64,000 nucleotides of DNA from Rhytidiadelphus loreus (lineage: Eukaryota > Streptophyta > Bryopsida > Hypnales > Hylocomiaceae): contig OX344762.1 in NCBI GenBank assembly GCA_947034895.1, positions 13,893,501 to 13,957,500 on the forward strand, written 5' to 3'. Position numbers and translations under genes: made by a program. The notes beneath the pieces were generated by a model, which saw only the letters and a program-made list of their open reading frames with translations, searched no databases and was not told where the DNA came from. This document shows, piece after piece, positions 3,568-36,654 of this stretch. How positions within the stretch are numbered: the first letter of the stretch is position 1; the number at the start of each line of letters is the position of its first letter.

Positions 3568-3595
3568 TAAGGGCTTATTCATTAATTTGAGACAA
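3568..3595 (+). repeat. TE-A left terminal inverted repeat
   Basis: Begins TAAGGGCTTATTCATTAA and continues TTTGAGACAA. The reverse complement of 23,395-23,422 matches it with two substitutions. Confidence 0.7.
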
Positions 3596-4102
3596 GTTGG
3601 GGTCTCATTTTAATGCATTCTATATTTAGAAAGAAATAAGGGTTTAATAAATTGAGACTCTTCAATAAATTAAGACTTCAAAATGTTAAAATATTTTTTT
3701 ATAGATTTTTCTAGTTCTAGAAAAAGTATCTCCAACCAACAATTCACTATTTTATTCCTTAATTTATTCATTAATATCTATATACAATAGACCATGAACT
3801 TCTAAATTGAAACATTTCTTTAAATTGAGACTACCTTTAATCCCAAAAAATCATCCCCATACTTCTCACACCAAACTTTTTAAATGAAAGACTTCAACCA
3901 AATACAAATTGAAGGCACAAGTAAATGTAATATATAGAAAAGCTATAAGAAAGGGGAAATATTTTCTATTAATAGCAATAAAAATGTTACATATCTGCCA
4001 CATCATTATAGAAACAATCAAAGAAACAACTACAAACACTAAAATGTAAAACCACATGGAACTTCACTTCCTAAAATAAGAAACCACCAACAGACCTACA
4101 AA

Positions 4103-7003
4103 CTATTCGTCGCCTTCCGCGGAAGACACTTCGTTCTCCGAATTAGAGTTAAAGGCCGTCAGGGATGATTTGATGATGTTCATTTGCATCTTCGGAATTG
4201 TAACTTTTGTAATAACTTGAGGTTGATCTTCAGCCCCCCTTCTTCCACGTGGCTTGAAAGCTGTCATGATACAGTCCGTATTGGACCAGCACGGAGGGAT
4301 TACACGATCCTCGCGCCACACATTCCCAGCTTTAGTGTCCCATCCAGCATACGTATCCATATTGATGTGACGACTTGAAGCAGGCGTCCAATACTGGATT
4401 TGGATCAAATGAACATGTTCGGGATCTGGATTTGGATTTGTAAGAGCCCTGGCAAGCCAAAATGGTTTTGGGTCGTCATCTGCAGGGCGCACTGCAACAA
4501 AATAACCTGCAAACACATCACGATCAACACGAAATGAAGGACGTGGGCGGTCACGCCTACGTCCAATGAAAGGTGCATCCCGTGCAAACTCTTCACGTAT
4601 TGTACCATCTCTCTACATTTGGTCTTCCGGTTCATTGGTGATCCTAGAAGCTGGCCAAAATCCATCTTGTAATGTCTCACGCACCTATAGAGGGGCATCT
4701 AGGGCAGATCTCACACCTTTCCAGTAACTTTTTATGGGGTCAATCTTCCTCCTGAACTCTCCAGATCGGTCGTCGTCTGACATTGCACTCCAATGAGCAA
4801 TAAAACCATTCAAACCCTTTTTGATCTCAGGCAGTGCTTTCATATGTTGTGGAGGCAGCGGGAGCGGACTACCGCTTGGTACTAGGGGACGCCCGTCTTC
4901 AGTCTCCGACCACAAACGAATCCCTTTCTTGTGTAGTGGTAGCCAGTCCTTGTCGGTACAAAGATATTTATACTCCATAATCGGCCAACCACTAGAATCC
5001 ATATGGAACTTGAACTGCTGGCCCGAGGAATGACCTTCTAAAAAATCCCCACCTGTTCCCAAGTACCCGTGCACAAATCTTTTGAAGTCAGGGACTTCCT
5101 CGATGAGATGAGGAATTACCGGGTGGGATTCACAGTCCATGAAGGACTTCATGAGTCTTGGAAGTGTCTGGTAATCATTGGTCTTCAACATGTTGCTCCA
5201 TCGACCAAACAAAGCATCAATGTCTTCATGTGTGTGTCCAACTATAAGGAAGTTGATGTATATCTCGCGGAAAATGCCTTTGAATACAAGTAGAGAGCAA
5301 AAAGCAAAAACCCATCGGTTCTTGTTGTCTTCCGATGCATTGTCCAATTGCAAAGTCAATATAGGCGGTAGGGGCTGAGCAGAAATAGGTTCCTGTGGAG
5401 GAACGAGGGAGTCCAAGCAAATTCCCCAACCTGCTAGCACAGCCTTGGTTAACATGGATTGGTCATCGTCCTTAGAAAATAAGATCCGTGATGTATTTTT
5501 GGGCGGTCCCTCAAGATCACGCAACAATCTAGCAATCGAGCCAATGGTGTGATTGGAGTCTGTTGGAAAAATGTCTAACCCATAGTGCGCATACCGAATG
5601 TCACCATGACCATGAGCAATCATACCGGTCACAACAATGGGCATTTTCATGAAAGAATCCGTCACTTTAGTCTTGTGAGAGAAGTGAGGAGAAGTAGTCT
5701 TCGAGTGATCCATTTTGTCATGAATGATGCAGAGCATCCTCTCTGGATACATCACGGAATACTCTCTATTTCCGTAATAGAGTTCCCTATGTGCCTTCTG
5801 CCCTGAAAGGTGTGTGGTCAAAATTCTGTCCCATTTGTCTTGTGCAGTGGAGAGAGGAGTACAAGCGGTCTTCAACTGCCTATATGTATCGCACATACCA
5901 CACCTCGAGAAAGTATCTCCTCGTGCCTTTGGAGCAAACTCAGGAAAAGACGCACGACGGATATTACTCAATCCACTAGAAGAAATCGGTGACAAATTGA
6001 ACGCAGCATTTGCCTCATTGATTTTTGGTAATTGATCACTCCAACGGAAGGCTGACGGCAATACCATTGCAGGGACTCTTTCCCCAGATGCTAAAGTTCT
6101 AGTCTTGTGCGGCATTGCTTCAGCTTCACCTACGATGAGCATTCGAAGTGTGGCAGTAGCTTGTACAGTTTGCGTGCGTGGTTTTTTCAACCCCAAATTA
6201 CCATGCGCTCTCGCTTGCATCCCAGATTTAGCCTTCTCTTTGTATCGGTAGAATGTAGCTTTTGAAATCCCGTGTATTGTCCACCAAGCAGTGGGACACA
6301 CTTCTAAGTTCTTCAAGGTAATCCAATCCTTCCCATCCTGGTCCTTGTGCATTTGTCGATGAACTTCAAGAAGACACTTCTTGTGATTATACACCCCATC
6401 CATTACATGCAGTTGAGAACGTATGGCTTGAATTTCTCGACGGGGAAACGACTGCAAGCAATTTTTGGGGCAACATGGCTTTGTGGACACATCAGTGATC
6501 GCTTGAGTTGTGAGAAGCGATTCTTTTTTGGGAAGAACGTCTACATCCGTCCTGACACGAGAACTTTCATACGATCGAATTCCCACACGTCCGCGGCGGT
6601 TCAAAGCATTGATAGCAGTGTTGTAAATGCTAGTTTGATCGTGGTCGTAAAGACTAACACCATTCAAAAACACTCTTTTAATGTGCCAGGAGTGCATGGA
6701 CCACATCCACCCGGACGGTACTTCATCCTCGCATAAGGACTCGGCAATCTGAATTGCCACACGGTCGTCACCAAGAGGTTCACCATCCATGTCAATGACG
6801 AGGTCCGCGTCAACGCTTCGACAAATCCCATTCGCGACGTCATCACCAGTATCATTCTTCAAAGAAACGCACTTCGAGATCCATGACGGACGAGGAATAC
6901 CGTCGCAAGGTGCGACCCCCACAGGAAGAACAGGCACCGGATTGGTAAAGTCATCGGGTCCATGGACGTCCATTCTACAATTCAAAGAAGTTACCCACGT
7001 CAT
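4103..7003 (-). pseudogene. DDE-type transposase of TE-A (DUF7869-like), two in-frame TAG codons
   Basis: From the ATG at 7,003 one frame runs 772 codons to a TAG at 4,685-4,687, continues in frame past a second TAG near 4,616, and ends at 4,103. A cysteine-containing segment (CCPKNCLQSF) lies near residue 200. The core carries HDKMDH (D429), LQLDNASEDNKNR (D554) and GHTHEDIDALF (E593), the likely catalytic Asp-Asp-Glu set of an RNase H-like fold. After the stops the frame encodes FAGYFVAVRPADDDPKPFWLAR, a conserved-looking C-terminal module common in this family. Both stops could be CAG-to-TAG changes. It presumably moved TE-A, but this copy looks inactive. Family assignment is from memory of the motif pattern. 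Confidence 0.7.
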
Positions 7004-7415
7004 GAACTAGAACTAGATGATACATGAAGTCATCAAACTTATCTTCGACTCAAAGATATGGTACGGTCAACATATCGGACAGCATTCCCAACTAGAAGTC
7101 GAGCATCTGACGAAGGATATGAAGCTCAGATGACAGTGATAAAAATATTATCATCACTGCAAAGATAATGTCATGCTCAGAACAAGAGAATTTAAAAATT
7201 AAATCCAACATCGGATTAGCCCAGACATTCAAACATCCTGCTATCGTCCACATTTCCTCACAGACTAGATCCATCCCAGCAGGCTTACGAAAACCAAAAG
7301 TACAGTGAAGGTAAAATGAAATTGAGAACTCATAACCTTCGAGAACGAGTCAATCTAGATTTAACATTCGACTTTCAGGTAAGTCAAGAAACTAGTAAGA
7401 TAACAACTGAATACC

Positions 7416-8712
7416 ATACCTTCGACTCGAAGATAACAGGATGGAGTGTCCACACTGAAGTTGGTAAATAATGTTGCCAGACTTGTTTTAAACAATAGCA
7501 GTAATTGTGATTGGAAAGGTTAATGACAACATTTTTAGTTGCGTAGTATATATAGGTCATTCCATCATATTTACGATTGGTACTTAAATGCTGAACGAAA
7601 ACAAAATATAGAAGTTGGAATTAAACAACAGAGAACTACACTAATTATCTCAAAATAATATCTCAGTTTGTGTAGTTCAGATTCGCTAATTATCCTCGAC
7701 TCGAGGATAAATTGGTGTCTCCCTATGCAAATCAACTATTCCCAACTCAACACTGTTGATTGCAAACAAATATGTAAAAACGATACATTAACTGCTCTTG
7801 TTAACGACCAACCCAGAAATGGGTAAATGAACATGAAACTCAAGTATCTGGATACCATTAACATCAATGAATGCACCATACAAGTGAGATACTTTACCTT
7901 CGAGTCGAAGTTAAAGCATAATACGAAACTGAACGAAAACTATTTGTAAAATTAAACAAGGAAATACACTAATTATGTTACAATAAAATCTCTTTTCCCC
8001 AAATTCAGATTCGCTAATTACCCTCGACTCGAGGATAAATTGGTGTCTCCCTATGCAAATCAACTGTTGCCAACTCAACACTGTTGATTTCAACCAAATA
8101 TGTAAAAACGATACATTAACTGCTCTTGCTAACGAGATACCCATAAATGGGTAAATGAACATGAAACTCAAGTATCTGGATACCATTAACATCAACGACT
8201 GCACCATACATGTGAGATACTTTATCTTCGAGTCGAAGATAAAACATAATACGAAACTAATCGCAACATATTTAAGGAATTAAACAACAAGGAAATACAC
8301 TAATTATCTCAATGAAATATCTGTTTTTTTAAATCAGATTCGCTAATTACCCTCGACTCGAGGATAAATTGGTGCCTCCCTTTGCAAATCAACTGTTGCC
8401 AGCTCAACACTGTTGATTTCAACCAAATATGTAAAAACGATACATTAACTGCTCTTGTTAACGACATACCCAGAAATGGGTAAATGAACATGAAACTCAA
8501 GTATCTGGATACCATTAACATCAACAACTGCACCATACATGTGACATACTTTATCTTCGAGTCGAAGGTAAATCATAATACGGAATTGAAAGCAAAACAT
8601 TTGTACTAGTCACAGTACTCAAAAAATATCATTTCAAGTTCACCCTTATCTTCGACATGAAGGTAAATGTGTGCAGTCCGTAGTGTCGTCTTTATCTTCG
8701 ACCCGAAGATAA
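7416..8712. repeat. Palindrome cluster 1 (nine copies)
   Basis: Copies of the 21-bp palindrome start at 7416, 7690, 7894, 8018, 8222, 8347, 8551, 8646 and 8692. Each is a 10-nt half site (TTATCTTCGA or TTATCCTCGA), a central C or G, and the complementary half site. The copies at 7690 and 8222 are perfect. A weaker copy lies at 7039. Confidence 0.85.
7681..8600. repeat. Three tandem units of about 330 bp, each carrying two palindromes
   Basis: Units begin with ATTCGCTAATTA at 7681, at about 8007 and at 8338. Each has a palindrome at its start and a second one about 204 bp later, so the palindromes were present before the tandem duplication. Confidence 0.8.
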
Positions 8713-9589
8713 AGTATCAAACTCGAAGAGGACACTTAGAATGATGTCCTAAATTTACGCCTCAATTTTCGGAGGCTCCACTTCGGATTTTACAAATGAA
8801 ATTTCCAATGACAATGACAATGGTTCCATAGCCGAGACATTGTGTGCAGGAACTTGTAATTCGTCGACATCAATCCGACTAGTTTATCATACTGAAACGA
8901 AGAAAAGCTGAATGGAGAGGGAAAACAGAAGCGACACTCACAGTCAGTCCTCCGGTATGAAATCGTCTACGCCTTTACAATCTGCCCGGCTCACCACAAA
9001 ATCATAAGCACACTCCTGCAAATGAATGCAAAACTTCCTACTAAAACTATGAACTATAGATTCAAGGAAGGAACGACATGATACAAGATTGCACGAAATT
9101 TTCTTAGCGCTGCAGACGTGCGATGAGAGCATCGGAATGGGGACACTCGCAACAATAGTGGAAGAAACTGGAGAAGACTAGGCGGGGAACAAATGAGGCG
9201 GCAAACGCTGAAATTTCAAATTGAGAGGAGTCGTCCGCGAATCTGTCAGTCATCAATTTATGGAAAAAGCAAAAGCAGATGCCGCGCGGTGTGCACGATT
9301 TTCCACTGGAAATGCGGGACTGCAGAATAAGTCGATTGAATTAGGTGACCTCAAGTGGAAAGTGACCATGTACAAGTCAAACTGGGCTTTATTTGGAGGA
9401 AAATTTAATGGGCATTAGCTAAATTCTGGGTGACACATGGAATTGAACGTTGAAGACAGTTTCTAAATTAAAAGCGATCTTTTTCAGGATTGCGGACAAT
9501 ATATTCTTTGGCATAAAATAGGGTTTCCACGATAAAATGTGGAATGAAAGGATCCACTGAGATCCTGTTCTAATTCCTTTCACCGTCAA

Positions 9590-9770
9590 ATAGGGTTTAT
9601 GGTTTCGAATTCGTGGTTTAGGGTTCATGTTCACGTTACGATTCGGGTTAAATAGGGTTTATGTTAAGGGTTTAGGGTTTACGTTCAAGATTTGGGGTTT
9701 CTGGTTTGGGGCTCAGAGTTGACATTTAGGTTTTAGGGTTTGCGCATTTAGGGTTTTGGGCGACTAAATT
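9590..9770. repeat. Degenerate telomere-like TAGGGTTTA repeats
   Basis: Many variants of GGGTTTA and TTAGGGTTT in a row, of the plant TTTAGGG type but imperfect. Confidence 0.6.
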
Positions 9771-11139
9771 TCACAAAGTTTTAACCCACATAGGGTTTGA
9801 AATTTACATCGATAAATACGTTATTCCGCCTACGCATTCAGAGTGTACTCCACAGACATTGAAAAATAACAACGATTTTATTTATTCTCTACCCGAAACC
9901 GTAAACCTCCTCTTCAAATATATTATAGAAGTAGAATGTATGAATTGAGGTGAATTCTAAAATGTGGACCACACAAATGTAAATTGAAGCGTTCTTTTAA
10001 CTAAGGTATAGGTTTCTTTAACAACGTATTTTAAGTGAATAGAACAGTCATCAATAATTAACTTTATAAACTTATACAATAAATTATTTATTTTTATACA
10101 TAAGAGTCTCGTAAATGGATGCATAGGATAATTGACAATCACTTTCAAGTGTTTGAACCTCCTTGTCAACTTTGATTGTTTACTTAAAGAAGGATGGAAT
10201 AATTAGTTAAAGCATACTAAGTATCACTCATAGTCACTTGAAGTCACTATGACTATGATTGTATGCTACCTAATTAAAGCAAAGGTCAATCATCATATAA
10301 ACAGTGCAATGTCATTGGACAATAATGGTGCAACTTCATGCCAATTAAACATCACACTAATAATGTATTTGAAAGACACAATGAATGGTAATTAGACAAT
10401 CATATTAAACAGTGGTAAAACAATTCTTATAAATAATTATGTGTTTCTTAAATAAAAGTAGCAAAATTTAAATTGTAATGACCCTAAACATCTTAAAAAC
10501 AATAATCATAATCACTTAGTTAATTGTAATTGAAGTTGCAATATTCATAATCATTCATTCAATCAATAGTAAGGCCTAAAAAACAGGAACCATGCCTTAC
10601 TATTCCCTAACTGCCAAATTCACAATGCCATGGAATTTGCATGACAAATAATCAAGGAGAATTAGAATAATACATACAAGTTCGAAATGAGTAGGAGGTG
10701 TAGCATCCGTGACAATCCCAAATGAATTTAAAGTACTACTATTTTTTTTCTTCTTAAAGATGTTATACGACTTCCATAAAAAAATATGTTATGCAATTTC
10801 ATTGCAATTACTCCTATTGTAAACTACTTTAGAAAATTATCCAATCAGTGCTCACTTTTAATGATATTGTACTTAGAACTAAAAAGTAAGCCAAGAACCT
10901 TAATACGATGTAGAACTCTAATAAAAGAATGTGCAAAAACATCCAAAGTCACTAAATTCAAGTTAAAAAATAAATAAGAAACATGACTATTCAATTCTGC
11001 TACTTCCAATTATACCTAAACACAAGAATTCAAAAAACACATGCAATCACTGGCCACTTTTAATGACCTCCTACTTCAAACTAGAAATTAGGACTACAAA
11101 CTTGCCATGTACTTTAATTATCAATTAAGTTTAATATCC

Positions 11140-11910
11140 ACAAAATTGTAATGTCATGGAATTTAAAAAAATAAAATTGGGAAACAAGTTGAGCTAGTTG
11201 CAATTGCTCCTAAATTCATGAATTCAAAAAAATATATAATTTGTGGTCACGTGGAATGATCTTTTATGTGGAATTAAATATTCATGCATGATTCTTGTCA
11301 TGTACCTTAATGTCCAAGAAATTGTAATGTTATGGAATTAAAAAAAAAAAATGGGAAACAAGTTGTGCAAGTTGCAATTGCTCCTAAACTCATGAATTCA
11401 AAAAAATATATAATTTGTGTTCACGTGGAATGATCTTTTACGTGGAATTAAATATTCATGCATGATTCTTGACTGACATGTACCTTAATGTCCAAGAAAA
11501 TGTAATGTCATGGAATTAAAAAAAAAAAAAATGGGAAACAAGTTGTGCAAGTTGCAATTGCTCCTAAACTCATGAATTCAAAAAAATATATAATTTGTGT
11601 TCACGTGGAATGATCTTTTACGTGGAATTAAATATTCATGCATGATTCTTGACTGTCATGTACCTTAATGTCCAAGAAATTGTAATCTCATGAAATCCAC
11701 ATGAAAAAAAATGGGAAACAAGTTGTGCAAGTTGCAATTGCTCCTAAACTCATGAATTCAAAAAAATATATAATTTGTGTTCATGTGGAATGATCTTTTA
11801 CGTGGAATTAAATATTCATGCATGATTCTTGACTATCATGTACCTTAATGTCCAAGAAATTGTAATCTCATGAAAATAATTCCCCCCCACAAATGGGAAA
11901 GAAGTTGTGT
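11140..11910. repeat. Tandem repeat of about 180 bp, four units
   Basis: The word GGGAAACAAGTTG recurs at about 11,179, 11,352, 11,532 and 11,713, with a diverged fifth copy near 11,896. Each unit also has ATGAATTCAAAAAAATATA and a poly-A stretch of varying length. Confidence 0.8.
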
Positions 11911-13079
11911 AAGTTTCAATTATTCCCAAATTCTAGAATTGAAATGAAATCCAATAATTGGTGGTCACTTGAAATCACCTTCTCCTTGAAACTAGAAATT
12001 GGGCCTAGAAACTTCGTTGCCATTTACTTTACGTAATGTCCAAAAATAAAAAAGGGCATGAAATATGTAGGATTCACAAATGAAAAGGATTATTTTGTAG
12101 GAAATTATGCCGTCCCAATTTCACCTAAACCACTACTAACTTTTTTAGTACATGTGTTGCATGAGGTGGACCGTGTGTGAAGAGGTATACTATTAAATAG
12201 AAGAAATAAGAAACTAAATTTTAAAACGTTTTTAAAACTCACTTTAGTTAAGATTTAAGATTTATTAACAGTCATGTAAAATTTCGAATCTAGTTTAATA
12301 TGCTATACCCTAAACAAATAGTATAAAAATAGCCTTTGACTATAGAAGAACATTCAAAACTTTCTATTGAATGTGAATTCATTATTTTGGTATTTTTGAT
12401 GATTTGAATATTGAATTCCATTGAATGAAGTTACACTTCAAGTTCTGTAGCAAAGTTATTGAACAATCACATTCTATATCTTTTTAGTTAGTGCAAAGTT
12501 ATAGTTGTGAAAATATGTTATTATTTTCAGTTCTTCTACAATATTACCATTCTAACATTCTCCTATTCTTTTAGCCTATTCATACAAAATGTTGATGTGG
12601 ACATAGTATATATCACTTAAACTTTCAACGAATATAATATAATAGGGTTCTAAATTTCATGAAGTGTAACTGTTTGAAAACAATTATATACTCCATGATA
12701 ATAATTTTGCCAATTTTGATTAAGCACGCAAAGAACTACTTCATGTTTTCATTTCACATACATTATTTTATTGTTTAGCCATTTAACATTGAGGCGGACG
12801 GTTTGCATCTAACGAATGACCCCGAATTCTCTTGTGTAATTATGACCAAAATCACACTATTCATCTTCGGAATTAGGTATAGAAGGATAAATCTTCTACT
12901 GTTACTAGATTCCAAATGAATATTTATGATTTTTTAACTAGATTATGTCACATGATTCCCAAAAGGCTGATTTCGATGGACACGTGACAAACCCGATGTT
13001 TATGGATTAGAAACGTGCATCCGTAAATAATATGCCTTCCTGAGTAACTTGCCTTTTAAACCTAGTTTATTCAGGAACT

Positions 13080-13430
13080 TTTATCAGGAATTTGCATGCA
13101 AACCTCCATTGCGACCATCCATTCCTAAGCTGCATTCCAAACTTGCATTTCGAACCCGTATTTTGAATTAGAATCCCAAAACAACATTAAGAAATTGTAC
13201 CGGTTTCCGAACTTACTTTTACAACTTGCATTAACGACTTTGCATCCCAAACTTACTTTACAAGTCGATTCCGAACCTGCATTCCAAACTTGCCTTGTTG
13301 GCTTGGCATCCCACACCTAAATCCCGAACCTACAACCCGAGACTATGTCCCAAACCTGCATTTTAGGCTCGGCATCGCACACGATTATCCCGAACCTACA
13401 ACCCGATCGATGTCCCGAACCTGAAATGGC
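13080..13430. repeat. Degenerate short repeats (AACCTGCATTCCAAACTTGCAT type)
   Basis: Repeated variants of GAACCTGCATTCC, AAACTTGCAT and CTCGGCATC with spacing of roughly 20-40 bases. No gene is supported. Confidence 0.5.
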
Positions 13431-13479
13431 GGCTCGGCAGTGGTTCGGTCGTTCATCTCCCTCCGTCAGTCTCACGCTT

Positions 13480-13850
13480 CCTCTACTGGTGTGTGCGCGC
13501 CCAATTCTCTGCTGGTGTGTGCAGTCGCACGATTCTGTGTGCGCGCCCGATTCTCTACTGCGATTCCGAGGTGGTGTGTGCAGTCGCGCGATTCCTATGC
13601 TGCATGTGTGCGCGATTCCTCTGCTGGTGTGTGCGCGCCCGATTCCTCTGCTGCAGTGTGCGCGATTCCGAGCTGGTGTGTGCGCGCCGTAAGTAGTTTT
13701 CTGTGCCCTTTCCTGCTGGTGTGTGCGAGGGGTTCTGTTTTTTTTCCCTGCTGCTGTGTCGGAGCGCGCTTCCGTTCTTTTCCTGTTGGTGTTCCCGAGC
13801 GTGCTTACTTCCTGCTGCTGTGTGCGTCGCCATCTCTGTCGGCTGTGGTG
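13480..13850. repeat. GC-rich minisatellite (GCTGGTGTGTGCGCGCC type)
   Basis: At least eight variants of CTGGTGTGTGCGCGCCCGATTC and shortened forms. Overlapping open frames on both strands are low-complexity by-products. It lies about 1.7 kb upstream of the ParB-like gene and could be part of its promoter or 5' leader region. Confidence 0.6.
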
Positions 13851-14871
13851 ATCTCGCGGGAATGCGGTGTGTGCACTTTTCTGTTGATTTCCGTGAGTTG
13901 GATAGAAGATCACCGTCAAACACCAAGCGTGTCTGAATCAACTGCTGTGTATGCCTCTCTCAATGTATTTGATTTTGCAGTGACTAAGTTCAGCTTGTCC
14001 CTGTTTGCATGACTGCAATTTCAGCGTTTTCGTGATTGGTTTGGGTTCTGATTCTTGGGCTGGAAAAGTTAATCATAGAAGGTGTTTAATGGTTGTGGGT
14101 TCTGCAGATAAGAATGAATGTACATACTTCTGTAAATCAGTAGCTGTTGAGGGTTTAGTAGTTTTCTGTAAATCGGTAGCTGCGGCTGAAGTATTCTTCC
14201 GCTGGTCTCCTTCGGGTGGAGCCGAGTTCGACCTTCTCCAACGTGATCTCCCTGATCTGCTTGAGTCGCAAAGTTGCAGGGATCCGGTTTTGTTTTCTTC
14301 AATTTCTGAGCGCAATCGTTCTGCCTCTGCATTCTTGAGCAGTGGAGGAGACGACGCCAACAGCAAGTGCAGGTATGGTTCTTTTCATTTCATTTTATTC
14401 TACTTGTTTGGAGATGAACACTTTGAGTTTTCAGGCGGGGTTTTGGCTAATGTCCATGGCCGGATTTTGCGTTCACTGTCATTTTATTTTTTCCAATTAT
14501 TATGTGAGTTACTTTTTCTCTCAAATTTCCAGGTGCTACGGTTACAGTACTTCAGGTTTCAATTTTGTCTAATTGTAGTATGGGAAAGTTGTGTAGAGTG
14601 AGCCCGGGAGGAACTTCTGTCGGATCAGCAACTCCATTTCGTTTTGCATTCTGTCAATTTCTGTGTGCAGGTCTGCTCATGCTTGCCGTGTAGGGTTTAG
14701 GATTTCTGTGTTGCTGTACTTCACACATTGGCAATTCAAGTGTTGAGAAGCACTGATTGTTTGCAATAAATTCAGCTTGCCTGAATTCAAATTCAATAAA
14801 CATATAGGTTCAGGGTTTATGAGCTAGGGTTTACGCATCAAAGTGGATCAAGGTTTACGAGTCAAGGTTAA

Positions 14872-15482
14872 TTAGCCTCGACACGAGGATAAAGTTAAAC
14901 GGACTGAGGAATAGACCAGCCGAACTGCCTATTCAGAAGTAGAGCTTCATACTTGATTAGCCTCGAGTCGAAGATAATGGAGATACGGGCATTGTAGACC
15001 CAATAAAACAATGAACATTGCCCAGATTACCCCGAGGACCCAAAACAACTGAAATAACAATGCACATCTGAAATTAAAATAATTAAAACCAGAGAAGATA
15101 ACTCATAATAACAAATAAATCTGAACACTTTTACCTTCGAGTCGAAGATAAAGAAATAACAATGGTCAGTCCAGGGAAAATTACACCTTCAATAGTATCA
15201 GATTCAACAAAAATCAGTACATGCAAGAATTCATGTTAATATATGATGCGATAACGTTAGAAAACAAATAGTCTCCATTGGAAAATTGAGGTCATTCAAT
15301 TATTGAACTCATAATTAATAAACTCGTCTCTTACACCTAATACGATGATACGATTAATTATCTTCGACTCGAAGATAATTCTAATTTAACTAATTACTAA
15401 AGAAACTGCCCCGCCATTCTATATCCACAGGATATGCTGACCAACAATTCACACTATCATATTACCCTCGTCTCGAAGGTAA
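14872..15482. repeat. Palindrome cluster 2 (five copies), upstream of the ParB-like gene
   Basis: Copies start at 14872, 14958, 15131, 15358 and 15462. The one at 15358 is a perfect palindrome. The last lies about 38 bp before the ATG at 15,520. Confidence 0.85.
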
Positions 15483-15519
15483 CTAATAGGCTTTCAATGT
15501 CTACAGACTTCACAGCAGG

Positions 15520-18500
15520 ATGGCGGAAGGAGCAAATTATGACTATTCTAGCACGTTGCCCTTCATGGAGCCTTTCCAAAACCCATTTACAGACGGGCCC
15601 TTCATAGATGAAATGCCAGAGGCATTTGGGGACCTTTGGCAATTCAAGCAGCATGTTGCTGTTTGGTCATTTGGCTTAAACCGGTTCCAAGACTTCGTGC
15701 ATCTACGGTACCGGGTCCACAACCAGCCAGACTTTTTTCCATGGCATCTGCAGGAGAAGGTCACAAACATTGAATCCGTCCGCGAGAACTTCGTCGTGAT
15801 CGTGCTGCAGGAGGCACGAGAAGACGGCAAGGACGGGGAGCACATTCATTCAATTGTGATGAACGTGAATGACATATGGGCAAAGTTTGAAATGGAGGAG
15901 TTAGAGTCATTTCTCCAAAACGCAAAATTAGACTACTTAATCAACACATTCAAAACTGCCAAATACATACCGTGGATTGAAGGCACTGCCAAAGTAAACT
16001 GCCGAAGACTCCTGAACATTTGGAAATCATTGGACAAGCATGCTCGACAGTATGTGAAGTCCCGGCCACTGATAGGCCATCAGATGAAGAAGAAGCAGAG
16101 GCCATCATTAGAGGGGCAGCCTAGTGGGTCCACTCCCCTACTGTCGGGCAGCACAGCAACCGGTCAGGGTCAAACTCGCTCAGAGCCGCGAAAACGGGCA
16201 GGAACTCAGTCCGTTGACGCAACGCAGGCAGGGGGCTCAAAATCTAAGCGACCGAGGGCAAGCCGAGCTGCCACAGTAACCGCTGCAGGAAGCTCAGGAT
16301 CGGCTCTCACGAATGTCACATTGCCAGAGGAACCCATGAGTCCGAAGGATGACGCTGACAAGTTTGGCCGCATTCAGCGAGACTTCTGGGCTATGCACAG
16401 AGGATGCTACGTCCTCGGACAAGATCCGAAAGTTGTCGACATCAAGCAGTGTATACCTGCAAGAGACGACTATGTCATCCGGGGTATGGAAGACCGTATC
16501 CTAGAATCGGTGAAGCGCAACCTCATTGCGCTAGGCCACATTCGGGAGCGCCAACGATTGTGTCTGACTCCTGTTGACAAACGCAACAATCTCCTGAAGG
16601 AGCCTCCCAAAAAATGGAAGGATATAAAGGATGGGAAGTTCATGATAATCAATGGTCAACATAGTGTCCAAGCATCCAAGGACTTGCAGAGAGAGAAGTG
16701 TTGTGAGCAACGTCGAGTTGAACTCAAGACCTGGGAGGCGTACATTGTTTGGACCCTTGATACATCGAAATTGGTGAATATATCAGAGTTTTACAACTCG
16801 ACTAATCACCTAGACCACGCCCAACCAACATGGGGGAGCCAGATTATAAGCTCCCGCAACGTATGGATCAACTGCCTCCGACCGACTCTAATCGCCGATG
16901 AGCCGGTGAAGCGGAGAAACGCGTCCGTCCTCAGCGAAGGGCAATGGAAGGTGATTTCTCCTCCTGACCTATTACCCTCGTCTCGAAGATAAATTTCTCA
17001 GTTCATGGTTCGCTAGTTCAGTAATTTTCTGGTTCATTATTATTTCACTACTACTTCGTCTTTCTATAAATGTGTACTTGTTGTATTATCTTCGAGTCGA
17101 AGATAACTGCTGAAGAACTCGGTGCTCACACAATGTATGTCCACTGTACTGCAGAGTTTCACTAATGCGGTAGTAAAACGATTCCAAAATATCAATCCCG
17201 AGAAAGAAGGCAAAAATATAAAACATGCCGGTGATCTCAAGAGCGAGATTAAGATTATCACTCTACGTGATGATATCTGGAGGCTCTGGAAAGAGTTCCT
17301 CACGAAGTACCTAGAGGGCTATCTCGTGGAGCCCGTCTCCCGACAGCTCTTCCGGGATTTGGATGACTTCAGCCGGAAGTCATTCTTCTTGAAGAGAGAG
17401 TTCTTCAAACATTTGGGCCACTTCACAGATTGTGATCTCGAGATTTTTGCAAAGCACCTCCTCAATCTAACCGAAGATTGTAGACTGAAGCACCCAAAGG
17501 TGTCCATCGGCAAGACAAAATATCTTGTGCCGGACAACCAAACAGCGTAGGACTGGGTGGAGCGCAAGAAGAAAAAGAAGATCATCCATGAAGAGTTGAT
17601 GACAATAAAGCCCAGTCTGAAACTGCGAGATGAGAACAACGACACTGACCTGACCGTCTGGAGGTCGTGGAAGAAGAGGCACAGCTTCTCGTCGTCGACG
17701 TGGGATTTCCTCCTCTCCTACCCAAAGCCGTCATACTTCAGTAAACGGCTTACAAACGATGCAAAGTTGAAACGGGCCAAGGATCTTGGGGAAAAATTTG
17801 CGGACGAGGCAACAATGTTTCAGAGGTTTATGAAGTCGAAGTATCGGCTTCAAAAACAATGTGGAGGTTTCGAGTTCAGGGGCCTGGACGCGAAGTCCAG
17901 AGTTCTGGTAACAACTGGAATGTACCAGTACATCAGTCGACCCCTTCCATTTGCTCTTCTTGACGTCCGGTACATGAACAGACCCGCCGTCCCTGATAAC
18001 ACATCCAATCTGGACCCGTTCCTTGAATACGTGGCCACCAGCCTGGAACCCCAGGCAAGTGACGCAAGTGTCTGGCTTTGGATCCTCGGTGGAGACGAGG
18101 ACTTCAACTCGGCATACAAATTCGCAACTGTCGACATGCCGAATTTCGACATCGTGAAGTCTGTATACATTGCTTCCCGCGCGGAGCGATTGGACAGTGT
18201 GTCTAATCGGTTTAAAACCGCTCCTGACGTGCGTATGCTCTTCCTCTTCAAGAGAGGTGACATGCATGCCAACGAAGTGCGGGACAGAGTAAAGGCAGAA
18301 TACCGTCCTGCCGAAATTTTGTATTACCAAGAAAGTAAGTACAACAACGAGGCAAAGTGGAGGATATATGCCTACGAACTCCGAATGGAGTTCTATTTTG
18401 AGATGCTCCAATGCTTCGCAATTCGTGAGGAAAACGTCTTGGGAATTTTTGCTAGAGCGAAGATTGCGTTGGCCGCCAAGGTGAGATTATCCTCGAGTCG

Positions 18501-20486
18501 AGGATACTGCCTGCTGTCTTCTGCCTGCATTCTTATTTCATTATTTTCATGTGGAGGCAGTCGATTACCTTCGATTCGAGGTTAATTGCCCTCGTGAATC
18601 GTGTTTAAATGTTTGTGTGTGTTGCTGTCCATAATCTGATATTTCTATGTCTCCCGTTCACATGTCAATGCTTATAGCGGTACGGAGGTCCACAGTTTAC
18701 CTTCGAGTCGAAGGTAAATTTAGGCTAGCTCTGAATTCTTACATTTGCATATCAATCTTTTGTTCTCAGATGTTCGGGACATACTACTACGGCCTAGTCG
18801 ATACGGACATGGGCACGGTGCACCGTGCCATGACAAAATCGGCAGAGTACTTGGACATGAATGATTTCTTGCATTCAAATTCACCGTACTCAGTCAAGTA
18901 CTTGAGGCCATTGTACATCGATGCGCCAGTACTGACATCTGTCTCTCCGCCCTCGGAAGAGGATCTACAGTCTCTTTATTCTAGTAGTGATGAGACTAGT
19001 ACTGCATCTGAGGGGGGAGGGTCTGGAAGTGGAGACGAGGGAGATAAGTCAGGGAGTGGGGATGGCATCGACATTTCTAGTTCCGAACCAACTGACTCAA
19101 CGAGGGACTCGTCACCTCCTCCTCACGCTACGGACGCGGGAAGGGATGACGTCTCTCCCCCTGAAGAACATAGGGACGCCGGTGCTGGCATCGGAGGCCT
19201 TGACGAGTATGGCACCAACGCCGATGCCATGGTGCGTTGGGAAGCTCAGCCTCGACTGGATGGTGAAGTGCCCAACCATGTAGTCGAAGATGTCGAGACA
19301 AACACGGAGTTCCAAGAGCAGCAACACCTGGAGCGCTTGCGCGAGAGCCGGAAGTTGGAGAAGAAGTCTGCTTCGATGACCTCTAGAGGCGCCGAGGGCC
19401 ACAGTCGTGAGGGTCGCGAGGGCGGCAGAAAGCTGAAATCGAAAGTGGAACGTGTTGTGGAAAATCTCAGCGACATCGACACTGACACGCTCCCGCAGTC
19501 GTCGGATTTCGATGACAGCGACAGCGACGACGGCAAAATCCCCGACGTCCCTCCTACTCCCATCCCCGGAAAGATTCAGACTGGGTGGTGGCAGGCGATG
19601 GTCGAGAGGAAGGCGAAGAAGGCAGCGAAGAGGATGGTAATGCAGGAAGAGCTTGACAAAAAGGACAAACAAATCGCAGACGCTCTCCTCGCCAGCAAGG
19701 AATCGAAGGCGAAGAGCCAGGCCACAACAGAACGGCTGGAAGTTCTGGAAAAACAAATGCATGACTTTTTTGCTTTAAAGGAATCCCAGTCAGTTCCTGT
19801 TCCAAGCCTGCCACCCTCCGAGTCTGCCCTAAACCCCCCTCCCTCCACACCCGGTCTGTCGCAGGAGGCCTGTGAACTGGTCTCTGGGCTGGCGGATCCT
19901 CGACTCGAGGATACACCTGCCGAGAATGCGCCACCTAAGCAGACAGGTCATGGAGTCGATCCAGGAAGTCGTCCTGTTCCTTCTCCCGCATCCCCTGGTA
20001 ATGTTGCTGGGATTTATCCTCGACTCGAGGATAAATCTGAAGTGGGTCCTTCGCTTCCCCAAGATGATCGGGTTGGTGATGCTTCTGTGGATGCTCCACA
20101 ATGCACACCGTCCAGGCAGGAGATAGAGGAGACAGCTACTCCAGGTGTACCCGAGCAGGAACAAGTCGACTATGGCGACTACGACGACTTCCTGCAGGAT
20201 AACACTATCGACGGGGGCGAAGAAATGCCTTCTGAGGCACCATCTCAGGAAGGAGGAGATGAGCAGCCTGCCGAATCGGTTGAGGTATGCTCTACTGATT
20301 CCTATTGACTTTCTCTCCCTCTGTACATAGTCTGCGTCGAAGTCACCTCTTCGTTGTCGATCTCATAGTCTCCGCATTCTGATATGATTATCTTCGACTC
20401 GAGGGTAAATTTAAGAGATGTGGGTGAGTCGCTCTTCTTGTCACTTATATTGTATGCATTTTGCTTGACAGGACGGTCCTCTTTGA
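15520..20486 (+). CDS. ParB-like domain plus degenerate N4/N6 DNA-methyltransferase-like protein
   Basis: Proposed exons are 15520-16950, 17155-18480, 18770-20284 and 20472-20486, all phase 0 with GT/AG borders, giving about 1,428 codons. Residues about 300-440 resemble a ParB/DGQHR-type domain, with MIINGQHSVQA at 375-385. Residues about 700-940 resemble an N6_N4 methyltransferase of beta order: LLDVRY (D747) sits where motif IV (DPPY) is expected, then a WLWILGG strand, then NVLGIFARAKIALAAK joined by splicing to MFGTYYYGLVDTD, matching motif I (VLDPFAGSGTT..AAK..GR.Y.GI). The key residues are replaced, so catalysis is unlikely. The C-terminal 480 residues are acidic and disordered with a charged helical part. 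ParB-methyltransferase fusions are common in bacteria and phages. A TAG at 17548-17550 interrupts exon 2 and may be a nonsense change or a tiny intron. All three introns contain palindromes. Confidence 0.65.
16951..17154 (+). other. Intron 1 of the ParB-like gene, containing two palindromes
   Basis: Donor GTGATT after TGGAAG, acceptor CTGCAG before AGTTTC; both flanking frames are phase 0. Palindromes lie at 16972-16992 and 17086-17106. Without splicing the first palindrome supplies the stop codon of the upstream frame. Confidence 0.65.
18481..18769 (+). other. Intron 2 of the ParB-like gene, containing three palindromes
   Basis: Donor GTGAGATT directly after GCCGCCAAG, acceptor TTCTCAG before ATGTTCGGG; phase 0. 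Splicing rejoins the methyltransferase motif I region. Palindromes start at 18487, 18565 and 18697, the first only six bases from the donor. Confidence 0.7.
19894..20034 (+). repeat. Two palindromes inside coding exon 3 (encode PRLED)
   Basis: Copies at 19894-19914 and 20014-20034 lie in the open frame and are read in the same phase, giving DPRLEDT and YPRLEDK. They sit in the disordered C-terminal region and do not break the frame. Confidence 0.85.
20388..20408. repeat. Palindrome in intron 3 of the ParB-like gene
   Basis: A copy with one asymmetric position (TTATCTTCGA, C, TCGAGGGTAA) inside the 187-base intron 20285-20471 (donor GTATGC, acceptor GACAG). Confidence 0.8.
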
Positions 20487-20614
20487 TTGTTTGGCGTTGA
20501 AATCCTGACGAAGTCGTCTTCGCAATGCCCCGCGTAGACTAGTGTAGTATAGAATTCACTTGTGATGTTTTCCGGCCTGAGATGAGGGTGGCATCTTCGA
20601 TATGTACTCTAATA

Positions 20615-20636
20615 TTTGTAAATAAATATGTATGCG
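20615..20636 (+). terminator. Shared 3' end motif after the ParB-like gene
   Basis: TTTGTAAATAAATATGTATG followed by CG. The identical 22-base word occurs at 21,761-21,782 after the phosphatase gene. It contains AATAAA, so it is a likely polyadenylation region, duplicated between the two genes. Confidence 0.5.
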
Positions 20637-20725
20637 ATTCACTTTCCATACGCGTCGATCTAATTGCATTTTCTTGACAATGTTATGTTGCTCAGCCAAA
20701 CATTCCTAGAAGTTTGCACCGCCCG

Positions 20726-21686
20726 ATGGCAATGAAAGCTTTTCCTAAGGGGAGCAAGCAATCGATTAGTGGATTTCAGTGCTCCTTCCCATTGTCTGGC
20801 TCACCTGATTCTGCATTCAAACAGGTAACTCCATTTCTATGTTGTCTGATTTAATCAGGTAGGGTCTGAGGGAACCGGAGAGCTTGTGCCGCAGAATATC
20901 TCGCCGGTAGTGCCTGACCGAAGGAGGTGGCTGAATATAGTGTTCGACTTAAACGGAGTCCTGTGCCACTGCGAGCCCAAATCTTACTCTAGGAGATTTA
21001 AGCCGTATAGTGTCGAACAAAATAATCTATGCCACTTGAACCCCACCCTCGTAGGCCCCAAGGCGGTATTCGCCAAGCAAAATCTACGCGACTTCCTGCA
21101 TGAGGTCTCGGAGATCACGGCGAGGGTCGTTGTCTGGTCCTCCATGAAGCACTCCACTACGGAGATGGTGGTGGAGCACCTCTTCAAAGGGATCAGGGCC
21201 CCCTTCGAAGTTCTGGGTCAGGACCATTGCAGGAGGATTGAGACCTTCCGGGGGACTTTCCTCCACTTCGATAAGAAGCCGGTCTTCCTGAAGGTCCTGG
21301 CCGAGCAGGTGTTCACGATGGTGGGTGGGGATGAGGCCTTCACCAGAGACAACACCCTTCTCATCGACGACTCTCCCGAAAAGAGTGTCTGCAATGAGAA
21401 GGGGAATGCCATATTCCTTCGCTCCTGGCGTCATAGTCATCGGCTGGACAACTTCCTCATGGGGGAACTTTTGCCGTGGCTCGGGCGTCTGGAAATGGAG
21501 TGTGAACCCGGTCGTCTGCGGGAGTATGTGCAGGTCAATCGGATAGGGGAAAGGCCGTTGGCCTATGTATCCGAGTATGTCCAAGGCATCGTCTCGGCGA
21601 TGAGAGATTCCGCACAGAATCTCGGCTCGCGTTTCGAACTTCCTGGGTTCGATGTAGTTATAGAGCCCGATGGACATAGGCCTTAG
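20726..21686 (+). CDS. FCP1/NIF-type HAD phosphatase homologue with altered motif I
   Basis: Main exon 20859-21686; a short upstream exon from ATG 20726 to 20824 is in phase if a 34-base intron (GTAACT...AATCAG) is real. The protein (about 309 residues) has the HAD-fold order of the FCP1 homology domain: VFDLNGVL (D63, N65), VVVWSS, and LLIDDSP (D203, D204). FCP1 and SCP enzymes dephosphorylate proteins, notably the RNA polymerase II tail, and use DxD in motif I; here the second Asp is Asn, as in some plant NIF-like proteins, so activity may be altered. An exon start at 20,696 is also in phase with exon 3 of the upstream gene, so alternative splicing could fuse the two proteins. The independent 3' motif after each gene favours separate genes. 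Confidence 0.7.
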
Positions 21687-21760
21687 ACTAGTCTTCTGCC
21701 CCGGCATCCGACAGTGCACATTTTGTAATTTGTGATTGTATATTCTGTACATTTGTAAAA

Positions 21761-21782
21761 TTTGTAAATAAATATGTATGCG
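21761..21782 (+). terminator. Shared 3' end motif after the phosphatase gene
   Basis: Same 22-base word as at 20,615-20,636, about 75 bases after the TAG of the phosphatase gene. Confidence 0.5.
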
Positions 21783-21944
21783 GTTCGGAATTTACATTAA
21801 AAGTTGCGCGTTTCTGTCGTCTTGGATCTGCGCTTGTGTCGTCTGCTTTGGGCCGGGGGGGGGAATGTATAGGAAACTTGTAAAATTTATATCTTTTTGC
21901 AGGTTGGAGCTCAAAATGTTGGAGACTCGCCTAAGAGGTTGAGG

Positions 21945-22832
21945 ATGACAAGGAGCCTCCTCTCTGGATCGGGGAAGTCGCTTTCGATGTCTTCCGGATC
22001 GGGATCGGAATCGAAATCTCCGGGAGGAACGTTCGTGCCGTCAGTGTTCTCTGGGCCTTTCATGATGCACACGGCCGAGGACGCTGCTTCTGCGGCCATT
22101 GACTTCTCCAAGGGGGACGTGGAGGACGGCGCCGTGGACAGCCCGCCAAGCCGAGGTCCGGGGAGGACCCCCGTTTGTTCCCCGTCCCCGTTGAAGCGCG
22201 CATCTTCGAATCGAGGATGCTCGTTCTCCCCAACACCACAGAATGAGGCGGGGACCAGTCGGAAACTGCATCTTCCCGTTCGCGGGGGCAGTCAAGATCC
22301 TCCACTGCAGGATACTATTTTCACGGAGCTCGACCGCCCAAATGTTCCCGTCACAGCCTCGAAGACGACTGCCCAAGTGTTACCAGGAACGTATACGAAG
22401 AGTGACGATGCGGGTCTTCCAAGGGTGGCTCGTTTGCCTCGCCTTGAGGGTAATCGGGCAAGCCCTTCACTATCTACTGGAGGTAGGCGGTCGCCTTCAG
22501 CCGACTCCCTTTTTCGTCAAAGGATTATAAGAGACCAAAGGCGATCTCTGGACTCCAAATCAACTGGATCTGGACTTCCATACATAAGCAATGTAAACTC
22601 AATGCTCCCAAGGCCGCGCCCTCATGGGTCAAAATCTATGTCCAGTTCCGAGGTTCCACGAAGCACCCTGAAGTTGAAGCGGAAGGAGAGTGACTCTCAA
22701 AGTGTGGGCTTCTCCGGAGCGGTGGACGGTGGAAATGGGCCCCATTATCACTCTCGACGCGAGGATATATTTAGAGGGTTGGTGAAGCTAAAAGCGTTAG
22801 AGGCAGCTAAGAGCAACTGTACAGGCAAATAG
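21945..22832 (+). CDS. Disordered Ser/Pro/Arg-rich protein of TE-A
   Basis: The open frame begins after a likely splice acceptor (TTTTTGCAG at 21,894-21,902); the first in-frame ATG is 21,945. The protein is rich in Ser, Pro, Gly and Arg, has basic patches (LKLKRKESD) and ends KLKALEAAKSNCTGK. No domain is recognised. Three palindrome-derived segments lie in it: an intact copy at 22,200, a diverged one near 22,433 (reads PRLEG) and one at 22,745 (reads RREDI). It may have an upstream exon. A nuclear or DNA-binding accessory role for transposition is possible but only a guess. Confidence 0.5.
   Translation: MTRSLLSGSGKSLSMSSGSGSESKSPGGTFVPSVFSGPFMMHTAEDAASAAIDFSKGDVEDGAVDSPPSRGPGRTPVCSPSPLKRASSNRGCSFSPTPQNEAGTSRKLHLPVRGGSQDPPLQDTIFTELDRPNVPVTASKTTAQVLPGTYTKSDDAGLPRVARLPRLEGNRASPSLSTGGRRSPSADSLFRQRIIRDQRRSLDSKSTGSGLPYISNVNSMLPRPRPHGSKSMSSSEVPRSTLKLKRKESDSQSVGFSGAVDGGNGPHYHSRREDIFRGLVKLKALEAAKSNCTGK
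22200..22768. repeat. Palindromes in the last TE-A gene
   Basis: A copy with GCATCTTCGA as half site, central A, at 22200-22220, and a diverged copy at about 22745-22768. A further remnant at 22433 keeps the coding sense PRLEG. Confidence 0.7.
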
Positions 22833-23394
22833 TGACTCGTCGAGATGCAAGAATATTTTTTGAAGCCAGTCTTTAAAACGTCCCTTACTATAAATAGCAT
22901 GGTAAATAAAAAATTACAAACCATAACTAACGATAGTTGAGAGCTTGCATGATCAATAAGCATCTAATTTTGTAGTTCATTTAGATTCATGACACTATCA
23001 GATTTACTTTGTCCATTGGATGAAGCAATTTAGTGAGACAATTAACATTAGTGAATGTAAATTCATCCGCATTTTCATCTACTACTGAATTCTTGATGCT
23101 AAACATGTGAATGTTTTACATCATGACTGTCTATCCTTGTAATCCACATTGTTTTTTTGGAGGGGCGGACAAGTATGTTAAGGAATTACACTAGAAGTGT
23201 TCTAGCACACGAGAGGTTGATTTCACACTAGGTAAGAACCCGCTACCACGGCATTAGATTTAGGCACCTCACGACCATCACCCTAAAACATATTGTAAAA
23301 ATGTGTTCAATAATTTCTATTTTCCTTTGAGTTTGGCAAGTATTACTACATTAAAGCTTCACACCCTTATTTTCAAAGTCTCAAAATTGCCAAA

Positions 23395-23422
23395 TTGTCT
23401 CAAATTAACGAATAAGGCCTTA
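23395..23422 (-). repeat. TE-A right terminal inverted repeat
   Basis: On the minus strand it reads TAAGGCCTTATTCGTTAA then TTTGAGACAA, matching the left terminus with two substitutions. Confidence 0.7.
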
Positions 23423-24832: not shown

Positions 24833-25370
24833 TTGTTCATTTTATGAATTTCATTCCTAACCCTATATTAGTGGGCAGAGGGGCCACAGTTGAAGTAGTA
24901 TATTTTTTTGGACAACTCCTCTTGTGTTAAATAATTAGCACTTGGGGGAGTGAATAAGTGATGCTTCAAACATTTTATGAATTTCATTCCTAACCCTATA
25001 TTAGTGGACAGAGGGGCCACAGTTGAAGTAGTATATTTTTTTGGACAACTCCTCTTGTGTTAAACAATTAGCACTTGGGGGAGTGAATAAGTGATGCTTC
25101 AAACATTTTATGAATTTCATTCCTAACCCTATATTAGTGGGCAGAGGGGCCACAGTTGAAGTAGTATATTTTTTTGGACAACTCCTCTTGTGTTAAACAA
25201 TTAGCACTTGGGGGAGTGAATAAGTGATGCTTCAAACATTTTATGAATTTCATTCCTAACCCTATATTAGTGGGCAGAGGGGCCACAGTTGAAGTAGTAT
25301 ATTTTTTTGGACAACTCCTCTTGTGTTAAATAATTAGCACTTGGGGGAGTGAATAAGTGATGCTTCAAAC
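24833..25370. repeat. Four tandem units of about 133 bp (TE-B)
   Basis: CCTAACCCTATATTAGTGG recurs at about 24,858, 24,990, 25,123 and 25,256, each unit ending in GAATAAGTGATGCTTCAAAC. The units differ at a few bases. At least two and a half units are present at the other arm (50,500-50,815). Confidence 0.85.
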
Positions 25371-26048
25371 ATGTCATTTTAATTTAAATTTTGAGGCAAA
25401 ATGAATTTTTATATGTATTGGTGCGAGAGTACTTTAGGATAAATGTCTTCAAAGAAATGGTGACTTCAAAGTCAATGTGTTTCTAAATTACAGAGGCCTA
25501 GCACATAGACCCTTGACCCTAAACAACCCCAGAGAAGGACCAATTCCGGGTTATGACAAGAATAAATAGCAGTCCATCTCAATCCATTAACCACAAGAAG
25601 CCATAACTCCAAATAGAACAGGGTTCAATTTTGGGAGGCCAGGCGGTGGGCTAGCTTCATGACTGAGATGGAGGCGGGAAGCATCGACCTTTCTGCGATT
25701 TTATTTGGGTAGCCTCCAATGCTACTGCCCCATATAATGGCTAACAATTACTAAGCTGTCTTGAAATTAATTAACTAGTTTGACAAACAGAACAAACATT
25801 TGAGGCCAAAAAATGGAGGAGACAAGGTAGGAAATTCTTGTGTCATTTATAAAGCAAAATTGCAACTGCATTTTCACAGTGCATTGTAAAGCTGTACAAC
25901 TACTTATAGTGGATTTAGGGTTGCATGAAAGTGCCAAAACGAAAATAAGACACACTAGTGTCTTTGAAAGCAAGCCTACACTGAAATTGGGGTAATGCCT
26001 AATGCAACGCCTAAAGCCTACTGCCTTGCGGGGAAATATGCAACATCC

Positions 26049-26600: not shown

Positions 26601-26796
26601 CCTAAGGACTGCCTTCGACTGGACCAAGCGGTTTAGGACTAAATCAGACTGCCTCAAACTGGAGCAACCACTACGCTACATCCTAACGACTGCCTCGGAC
26701 TGTAGTGAGTACTATGCATCTAAATAAGACTACCTTGGACTTAAGAGCAGGGGTTAAGAAGAGGGTTTAGGGTAGGGTGAAGCTGAAATCCCAGCT

Positions 26797-26804
26797 CTTT
26801 ATAC
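26797..26804 (-). promoter_or_regulatory. TATA-like box of the small acidic-protein gene (copy 1)
   Basis: GTATAAAG on the minus strand, 197 bases before the ATG; mirrored at 49,069-49,076. Confidence 0.45.
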
Positions 26805-27069
26805 GTCATAAACCGCTTGGTTTACTTGCATCATGAGTACCAAAATTAAATGGGTTTAGATCACAATTACACTTGAAAACAATGATGCAAACACCTAAAC
26901 CATCAAACATCAGCACTGGTTTCAAATTCTGAATTGAGGCAATAATAGCTATTATATTCATCAAGAATCCGAGACCCAGCTAATGATTATGAAGTACTCA
27001 CCTCCGGTCATGAGTTGGAGAACACCCTTGATGGCAAGGGAAAGACAAGTTACTTTGCATTGATGCAAA

Positions 27070-27140: not shown

Positions 27141-27202
27141 TCCACCTGCGCACCCCCCCAAACCAAAAACAAAATTGTACTGTGCAGATGTAATTGGAGT
27201 CT

Positions 27203-31905: not shown

Positions 31906-31915
31906 TGATCCAGCG

Positions 31916-35580: not shown

Positions 35581-35589
35581 CATGTTTCA

Positions 35590-36650: not shown

Positions 36651-36654
36651 TTGT

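Follow-up and report, generated by a model that had tools for sequence, protein, structure and literature searches.

The stretch analysed here, 64,000 nt of the Rhytidiadelphus loreus genome (contig OX344762.1, positions 13,893,501 to 13,957,500 of the forward strand; hereafter the window), contains a DNA transposon, TE-A, that spans positions 3568-23422 (about 19.9 kb). Its left part holds a putative transposase gene, read leftward; to the right lie ORF1 (open reading frame 1), a phosphatase-like gene and ORF5, all read rightward. A family of 21-bp palindromes is scattered between and within these genes, and we present these palindromes as candidate cis-acting sites for a dimeric protein. The element is laid out as follows.

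3568..3600, plus strand: left terminal inverted repeat of TE-A, 33 nt, 91% to 23390-23422; outermost base 3568 or 3569; similar termini in relatives
4103..4612, minus strand: putative transposase, C-terminal exon; open reading frame with a homologous exon in related elements
4690..7003, minus strand: putative transposase, main exon, DUF7869 (PF25273, E 3.4e-43; presumed transposase role)
15520..16950, plus strand: ORF1 exon 1, N-terminal domain and ParB-like fold (residues about 300-444), a predicted fold
17155..18480, plus strand: ORF1 exon 2, helical region and beta-class DNA methyltransferase fold with degenerate motifs, from a model of the L016 copy
18770..20284, plus strand: ORF1 exon 3, its first 62 residues having matches in diverged relatives; two palindromes inside
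20472..20486, plus strand: ORF1 exon 4, last codons, placed by splice sites
20886..21686, plus strand: NIF/FCP1-like phosphatase gene of TE-A (PF03031, E 5.5e-10)
21897..22832, plus strand: ORF5, conserved in related elements (homology to relatives)
23390..23422, minus strand: right terminal inverted repeat of TE-A; GAG just beyond both TE-A ends

The features of a DUF7869 transposon are all present, namely the PF25273 domain, terminal inverted repeats and a target duplication (GAG in TE-A). When TE-A and one GAG are excised in silico, the frame from an ORF start at 2933 stays open for 40 codons to a stop, which is suggestive, not proof, of the insertion limits. The exact terminus and the duplication length are tentative, since copies differ in the base outside AAGG and a gene-less relative, L014, is flanked by AATA. 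By splice-site reading ORF1 has four exons and about 1430 codons, with one in-frame stop in the window copy (17548-17550, in exon 2); the matched exons of several other copies are also interrupted, and because of these stops many TE-A-type copies are probably dead. The NIF/FCP1-like phosphatase (20886-21686) is also present in diverged relatives of TE-A.

A search with the TTATCYTCGANTCGARGATAA pattern returned 23 sites in the window at up to 3 mismatches, whereas 100 shuffles gave 0.02 on average and never more than 1. The wider word TTAYCYTCGANTCGARGRTAA gave 26 sites at up to 4 mismatches, of which 11 are exact; in ten simulated sequences of 64 kb there were 0.1 on average at 4 mismatches and none at 3 or fewer. 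All 26 sites fall within 7039-22768, inside TE-A, and in the remainder of the window the best TTAYCYTCGANTCGARGRTAA match has 5 mismatches (one such match; simulated mean 2.4 per 64 kb). The first-pass annotation, which had described a palindrome family confined to TE-A and absent from the rest of the window, was therefore right on both counts. The range it gave, 7416..22768, holds at its right end and begins too late, since the first site is at 7039. Its description of the copies as perfect palindromes applies to 6 of the 23 sites (7690, 8222, 15358, 17086, 18697 and 20014), the other 17 having 1-3 asymmetric pairs each. Because six sites sit in a tandem repeat of three units at 7.6-8.6 kb, the number of independent sites is below 23. 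The sites, listed without strand, are these.

7039..7059: palindromic site, ~35 bp upstream of the transposase ATG
7416..7436: palindromic site, word match
7690..7710: palindromic site, perfect, CC type, tandem unit 1
7894..7914: palindromic site, tandem unit 1
8018..8038: palindromic site, tandem unit 2
8222..8242: palindromic site, perfect, TT type, tandem unit 2
8347..8367: palindromic site, tandem unit 3
8551..8571: palindromic site, tandem unit 3
8646..8666: palindromic site, word match
8692..8712: palindromic site, word match
14872..14892: palindromic site, upstream of ORF1, word match
14957..14977: palindromic site, upstream of ORF1, word match
15131..15151: palindromic site, upstream of ORF1, word match
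15358..15378: palindromic site, perfect, upstream of ORF1, word match
15462..15482: palindromic site, 37 bp ahead of the ORF1 ATG
16972..16992: palindromic site, ORF1 intron 1, 22 bp past the donor
17086..17106: palindromic site, perfect, ORF1 intron 1, 49 bp ahead of the acceptor
18487..18507: palindromic site, ORF1 intron 2, 7 bp past the donor
18565..18585: palindromic site, ORF1 intron 2, word match
18697..18717: palindromic site, perfect, ORF1 intron 2, 53 bp ahead of the acceptor
19894..19914: palindromic site, coding exon 3 of ORF1, word match
20014..20034: palindromic site, perfect, coding exon 3 of ORF1, word match
20388..20408: palindromic site, ORF1 intron 3, word match
22200..22220: weak site in ORF5, 4 mismatches, TTAYCYTCGANTCGARGRTAA match
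22433..22453: weak site in ORF5, 4 mismatches, TTAYCYTCGANTCGARGRTAA match
22748..22768: weak site in ORF5, 4 mismatches, TTAYCYTCGANTCGARGRTAA match

As had been noted at first sight, the sites occur between genes, in all three ORF1 introns and in coding sequence, with a distribution that is far from even: ORF1 introns hold 6 of the 23 in 680 bp, and ORF1 exons hold 2 (both in exon 3) in 4287 bp. Ten more lie within 1.7 kb of the transposase ATG on its upstream side, including the six in the threefold tandem repeat, and five in the 0.65 kb upstream of ORF1. None of the 23 occurs in the transposase exons, the NIF exon, the ORF5 exon, the 6.1-kb middle intergenic stretch or the ends of TE-A; ORF5 contains only the three weak sites, with 4 mismatches each. 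The position within introns recurs among relatives: where both exons are present (14 elements), intron 1 or 2 has its first site starting 7-30 bp past the donor and its last, where a second was found, ending 35-76 bp ahead of the acceptor, the exon ends of the relatives being extrapolated from those of the window.

Genome-wide (407 Mb, 489 contigs) we counted 599 exact sites, and none with the reversed control. We sampled 20 regions of 10 kb from 17 separate places on contig 1, covering 38 of 50 listed sites among the 599. Homologues of TE-A proteins are encoded in 17 of the 20; another region, L005, matches one of these 17 (L013) at 98.7% over 1787 bp. L014 is a 379-bp miniature inverted-repeat transposable element (MITE) whose ends resemble those of TE-A; it contains three exact sites, the first of them 43 bp from its end, and no homologue of TE-A proteins was found in it; the genome holds 55 L014-like stretches, several being parts of one copy (40 of 116 candidates scored). 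In L020, an 82% relative, the first site is of the TT..AA type where the aligned L014 site is CC..GG, so both arms differ. All 20 sampled regions with exact sites are thus TE-A superfamily relatives or MITEs, in line with an enrichment of the motif in this family; an equal density of the motif outside TE-A-type elements was not observed in these regions.

Comparing copies of the element, we found that the sites are under constraint. In four older copies the sites differ from those of the window by 0.087-0.102 per base, as compared with 0.188-0.342 in non-coding flanks within 40 bp, so that sites evolve about 1.8-3.9 times more slowly than these flanks in four of five copy comparisons; picking sites by the window's own sequence biases these values somewhat towards conservation. 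In the youngest copy all 23 sites have counterparts at orthologous positions; the older copies, which align only in part, have 9, 7, 8 and 7. The two absences examined correspond to a 182-bp piece (window versus L009) and a 52-bp piece (L016 versus window), each with one site inside, and neither is a gain or loss of a bare 21-bp unit. Between the two youngest copies, TE-A and L009/L010, 5 of 8 within-site differences (at window sites 7039, 7690, 7894, 8646 and 18697) are C/T or G/A changes at CpG, a pattern expected if the copies are now methylated at the sites.

The symmetry of the sites was assessed on 250 sites in 79 flank clusters, with lineage VI (below) left out. Matched changes in both halves, which the first-pass annotation had emphasized, are clear at arm position 6 only (matched in 72% versus 43% expected; 0/300 shuffles); the excess at position 1 is slight (70% versus 60%; 1/300 shuffles), and positions 4 and 10 match no more often than by chance. 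Since position 6 alone clearly covaries, correction does not extend over whole arms. Taken lineage by lineage, the signal at this position is weaker, being reached by 111 of 2000 shuffles in lineage I and 50 of 2000 in II/III. Among the 599 exact genome sites, 331 are CC..GG, 169 are TT..AA and, by subtraction, 99 are mixed, as compared with about 278 mixed sites under independence; these are raw counts that include copies, and MITEs contribute many of the CC sites.

A sister lineage, VI, carries a word of its own. The lineage VI element, in which exon 2 is 27% identical to that of the window (as are the ORF1 exons, at about 27%), contains a different palindrome, ATCAGCTCGANTCGAGCTGAT, that has the same core as the first word, the word of TE-A; this core, TCGANTCGA, has GANTC at its centre. 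There are 145 exact copies of ATCAGCTCGANTCGAGCTGAT in the genome (control 0), and two more lineage VI elements, fetched for carrying it, encode the same proteins. ATCAGCTCGANTCGAGCTGAT occupies the places that the first word has in TE-A, upstream of the corresponding genes and within the corresponding introns. The two words do not mix: at up to 2 mismatches, 12 non-VI elements lack ATCAGCTCGANTCGAGCTGAT and three lineage VI elements lack the first word, and a chimeric word with one arm of each is absent. Another element, L024, carries mainly GTATCRTCGANTCGAYGATAC (5 against 2). Almost the same word is retained in lineages I, II/III, V and L029, even though exon 1 identity to the window falls to 36-53% outside lineage I. 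The contig L029 (1-4235, 4.2 kb), filed under a Synechococcales cyanobacterium assembly, carries an ORF1 with the exon layout of TE-A, and the first word occurs there ahead of exon 1 and within intron 1; because of this layout it is probably misbinned eukaryotic DNA from that sample. By sequence comparison, this pattern suggests that in each lineage a separate docking site has evolved for one of that lineage's proteins.

Structure prediction points to ORF1 as a possible DNA-binding protein. In the exon 1 model (27 sequences; predicted local distance difference test, pLDDT, 73.6; predicted template modelling score, pTM, 0.42), residues 300-444 match ParB, Noc and KorB, in agreement with an early hunch of a ParB-like protein. 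In the exon 2 model, built on the L016 copy with 44 sequences (pLDDT 86.6), residues 236-442 match beta-class DNA methyltransferases, CcrM among them. DPPY and FxGxG are the defining motifs of such methyltransferases. None of the 44 aligned rows has DPPY at the expected catalytic strand, the end of which we take to be motif IV; most read D-x-R-x-x-P there, variants including K, W, Q or C in place of R, and motif I is mostly F/Y-x-G-x-K. For these reasons the enzyme looks inactive or altered. Compared with ParB-methyltransferase accessory proteins, ORF1 appears to have the ParB-like domain and the DNA methyltransferase domain and to lack the catalytic motif IV, which would make it at most a degenerate relative.

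We consider it likely that the sites are bound by a dimeric protein encoded by the element, as had been proposed early on. Such a dimer would explain the restriction to TE-A-type elements, the constraint on the sites, their retention in MITEs, the change of both arms in the sister-lineage word and the clustering of sites in introns and ahead of genes. That this binder is ORF1 we also favour, with less assurance. An ORF1 homodimer would read the two arms around the core TCGANTCGA; sitting on many sites beside both divergent genes and in its own introns, it would keep the genes expressed or shielded from host silencing, and gene-less MITEs that retained sites would receive the same benefit. Co-evolution of protein and sites would leave each diverged lineage with a word of its own. 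A role in anti-silencing or transcription rather than another one is tentative, its chance being a little short of even. Host enzymes related to the NIF/FCP1 phosphatase act on the RNA polymerase II tail, and such an activity would fit a role in transcription. The reading as a whole, palindromes and ORF1 in anti-silencing or transcription, is in our judgement moderately probable. A bolder version, which we consider unlikely, is a counterpart of parS: a ParB-like protein with a decommissioned methyltransferase would load at dozens of palindromes, spread along the element and block host silencing, the dead enzyme serving as a reader of a long word, and a switch of specificity between lineages would drag along all sites and the MITEs that keep them.

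Several observations weigh against the ORF1 reading. The folds are predictions, the exon 1 model having a low pTM and a best Foldseek E-value for ParB of 0.008; one of 44 members matches N6_N4_Mtase (E 0.0035), and the apparent catalytic loss is read from an alignment. Judged by the identities compared here, the protein changes far faster than the word, and one complete and one partial word change were seen in total. The lineage VI transposase has diverged as well (36-47% identity in the pieces seen), so that co-divergence cannot settle which protein binds. In the youngest copy sites and flanks do not differ (0.016 versus 0.016-0.020), and against all non-coding sequence the advantage of the sites is small in L017 (0.087 versus 0.120) and L008 (0.102 versus 0.144). 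Finally, a model of DNA binding alone does not call for sites just inside introns.

The transposase is a competitor for the sites: bound by the DUF7869 protein, they would serve transposition like the subterminal repeats of plant DNA transposons. This transposase is element-encoded and co-diverges, and the gene-less L014 has kept both termini and its three sites, the first close to an end. However, subterminal repeats are expected beside the termini, whereas the strong sites of the full element concentrate in introns and upstream of genes, with none within 4 mismatches at 3568-7038 and only three weak ones from 20409 to the right end, and we regard this explanation as unlikely. The intron positions would suit RNA hairpins in the pre-mRNA, or paired intron sites that help splicing, and the matched position-6 changes resemble base-pair compensation. 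Yet 45 distinct intron sites have 15 wobble pairs in the sense and 15 in the antisense orientation, and therefore lend an RNA hairpin no support; arm position 4 shows no covariation, and sites also occur upstream of both genes, in arrays and in gene-less MITEs, all of which makes a role in RNA quite improbable.

GATA factors read GATAA, and both arms of the first word have TTATC/GATAA at their ends, so that sites upstream of element genes could be targets of a host protein, such as a GATA-type factor, exploited by the element for its own expression. This is highly doubtful, because the lineage VI word lacks GATAA yet occupies the same kinds of places, and because exact first-word sites are found, within the sampled regions, only in these elements. 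The symmetry might also have come from template switching, a process that perfects short quasi-palindromes and would account for the excess of matches at position 6 and, slightly, at position 1, but such correction should hit every variable base, positions 4 and 10 included, and does not explain why sites evolve more slowly than their near flanks; we judge it very improbable. A tiny mobile hairpin that copies itself to new places, which the first-pass annotation had offered as its second possibility, would fit the many copies and often matching arms. It is hardly credible in view of the orthologous counterparts among copies, the placement conserved across lineages, the losses of pieces longer than the 21-bp unit and the TE-A-type surroundings of every sampled region.

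Outside TE-A, the window contains other repeats. At 25056-31934 and 43937-50817 lies an inverted repeat of 100% identity, in two blocks (4782 and 2083 nt per arm) with a 12-kb spacer, which represents either two very recent head-to-head copies or one long palindromic element. A dense family of short repeats with CCGTC..GACGG units (50996-51183, 58082-58251 and 60636-61034) may represent a further element that has a symmetric word of its own. Units like GGGCGACTGCGGGTC, in both orientations, form arrays at 34447-36869 and 40427-40752.

The closest parallel to element-encoded binding at the TE-A palindromes is the VANDAL/VANC system of Arabidopsis, in which VANC proteins bind motifs in non-coding parts, introns included, of their own VANDAL family and undo silencing (PMC5735166, PMC10398659). 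Judged by the same accounts, the two systems share an element-specific short motif, multiplied in tandem and located in non-coding parts including introns and upstream regions, and related elements with different motifs (PMC5735166, PMC10398659); in TE-A this corresponds to enrichment in one transposon family, within the sampled regions, and to the separate word of lineage VI. They differ in that the VANC21 motif described there is a 9-base YAGTATTAY in one orientation, whereas the TE-A site is a 21-bp odd palindrome with conserved intron placement. For VANC, binding by an element-encoded protein to the motif of its own family and loss of methylation are reported as demonstrated, while TE-A offers a candidate binder whose binding is predicted, and is compared with VANDAL/VANC as an analogue. 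VANDALs are Mutator-like elements, unlike TE-A with its DUF7869.

Bacterial ParB/parS is similar in combining a ParB-like fold (by prediction in TE-A) with palindromic sites near the gene, parS being a palindrome; TE-A differs in its many dispersed sites and its setting in a nuclear transposon, and no ParB helix-turn-helix was identified in ORF1 (the exon 2 fold matches cover residues 236-442 only). ORF1 is about 10-12% identical to the beta-class methyltransferases CcrM, M.RsrI and M.BceJIV, without conservation of the catalytic motif. CcrM is described as a dimer that methylates GANTC (PMC6787082), a site far shorter than the 21-bp word of TE-A. In architecture TE-A resembles Sola1-1_Ec32 of Ectocarpus, a 21.5-kb Sola1 transposon described as encoding a ParB-like and methyltransferase protein (PMC12477816): both are giant DNA transposons (21.5 kb versus 19.9 kb) with such a protein opposite the transposase. 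The families differ (Sola1 versus DUF7869), as does the enzyme, which is a predicted N4C/N6A methyltransferase in Sola1-1_Ec32 (PMC12477816) and lacks DPPY in every aligned sequence of the TE-A type, with mostly D-x-R-x-x-P in its place. ParB-methyltransferase transposon proteins are thus already published, and the authors suggest that they may bind and modify their own transposon; in the portion of PMC12477816 available to us we found no account of their binding sites.

TE-A supplies such a candidate site together with a built-in test of specificity, in the form of two sister lineages with two palindromes, matching placement and zero chimeras. If the predicted binding is true, the logic of VANDAL/VANC, a protein and a motif that co-evolve, would have arisen with an apparently unrelated protein of prokaryote-type folds, and the paired words would allow mapping of the residues that set the specificity of a methyltransferase-derived reader.

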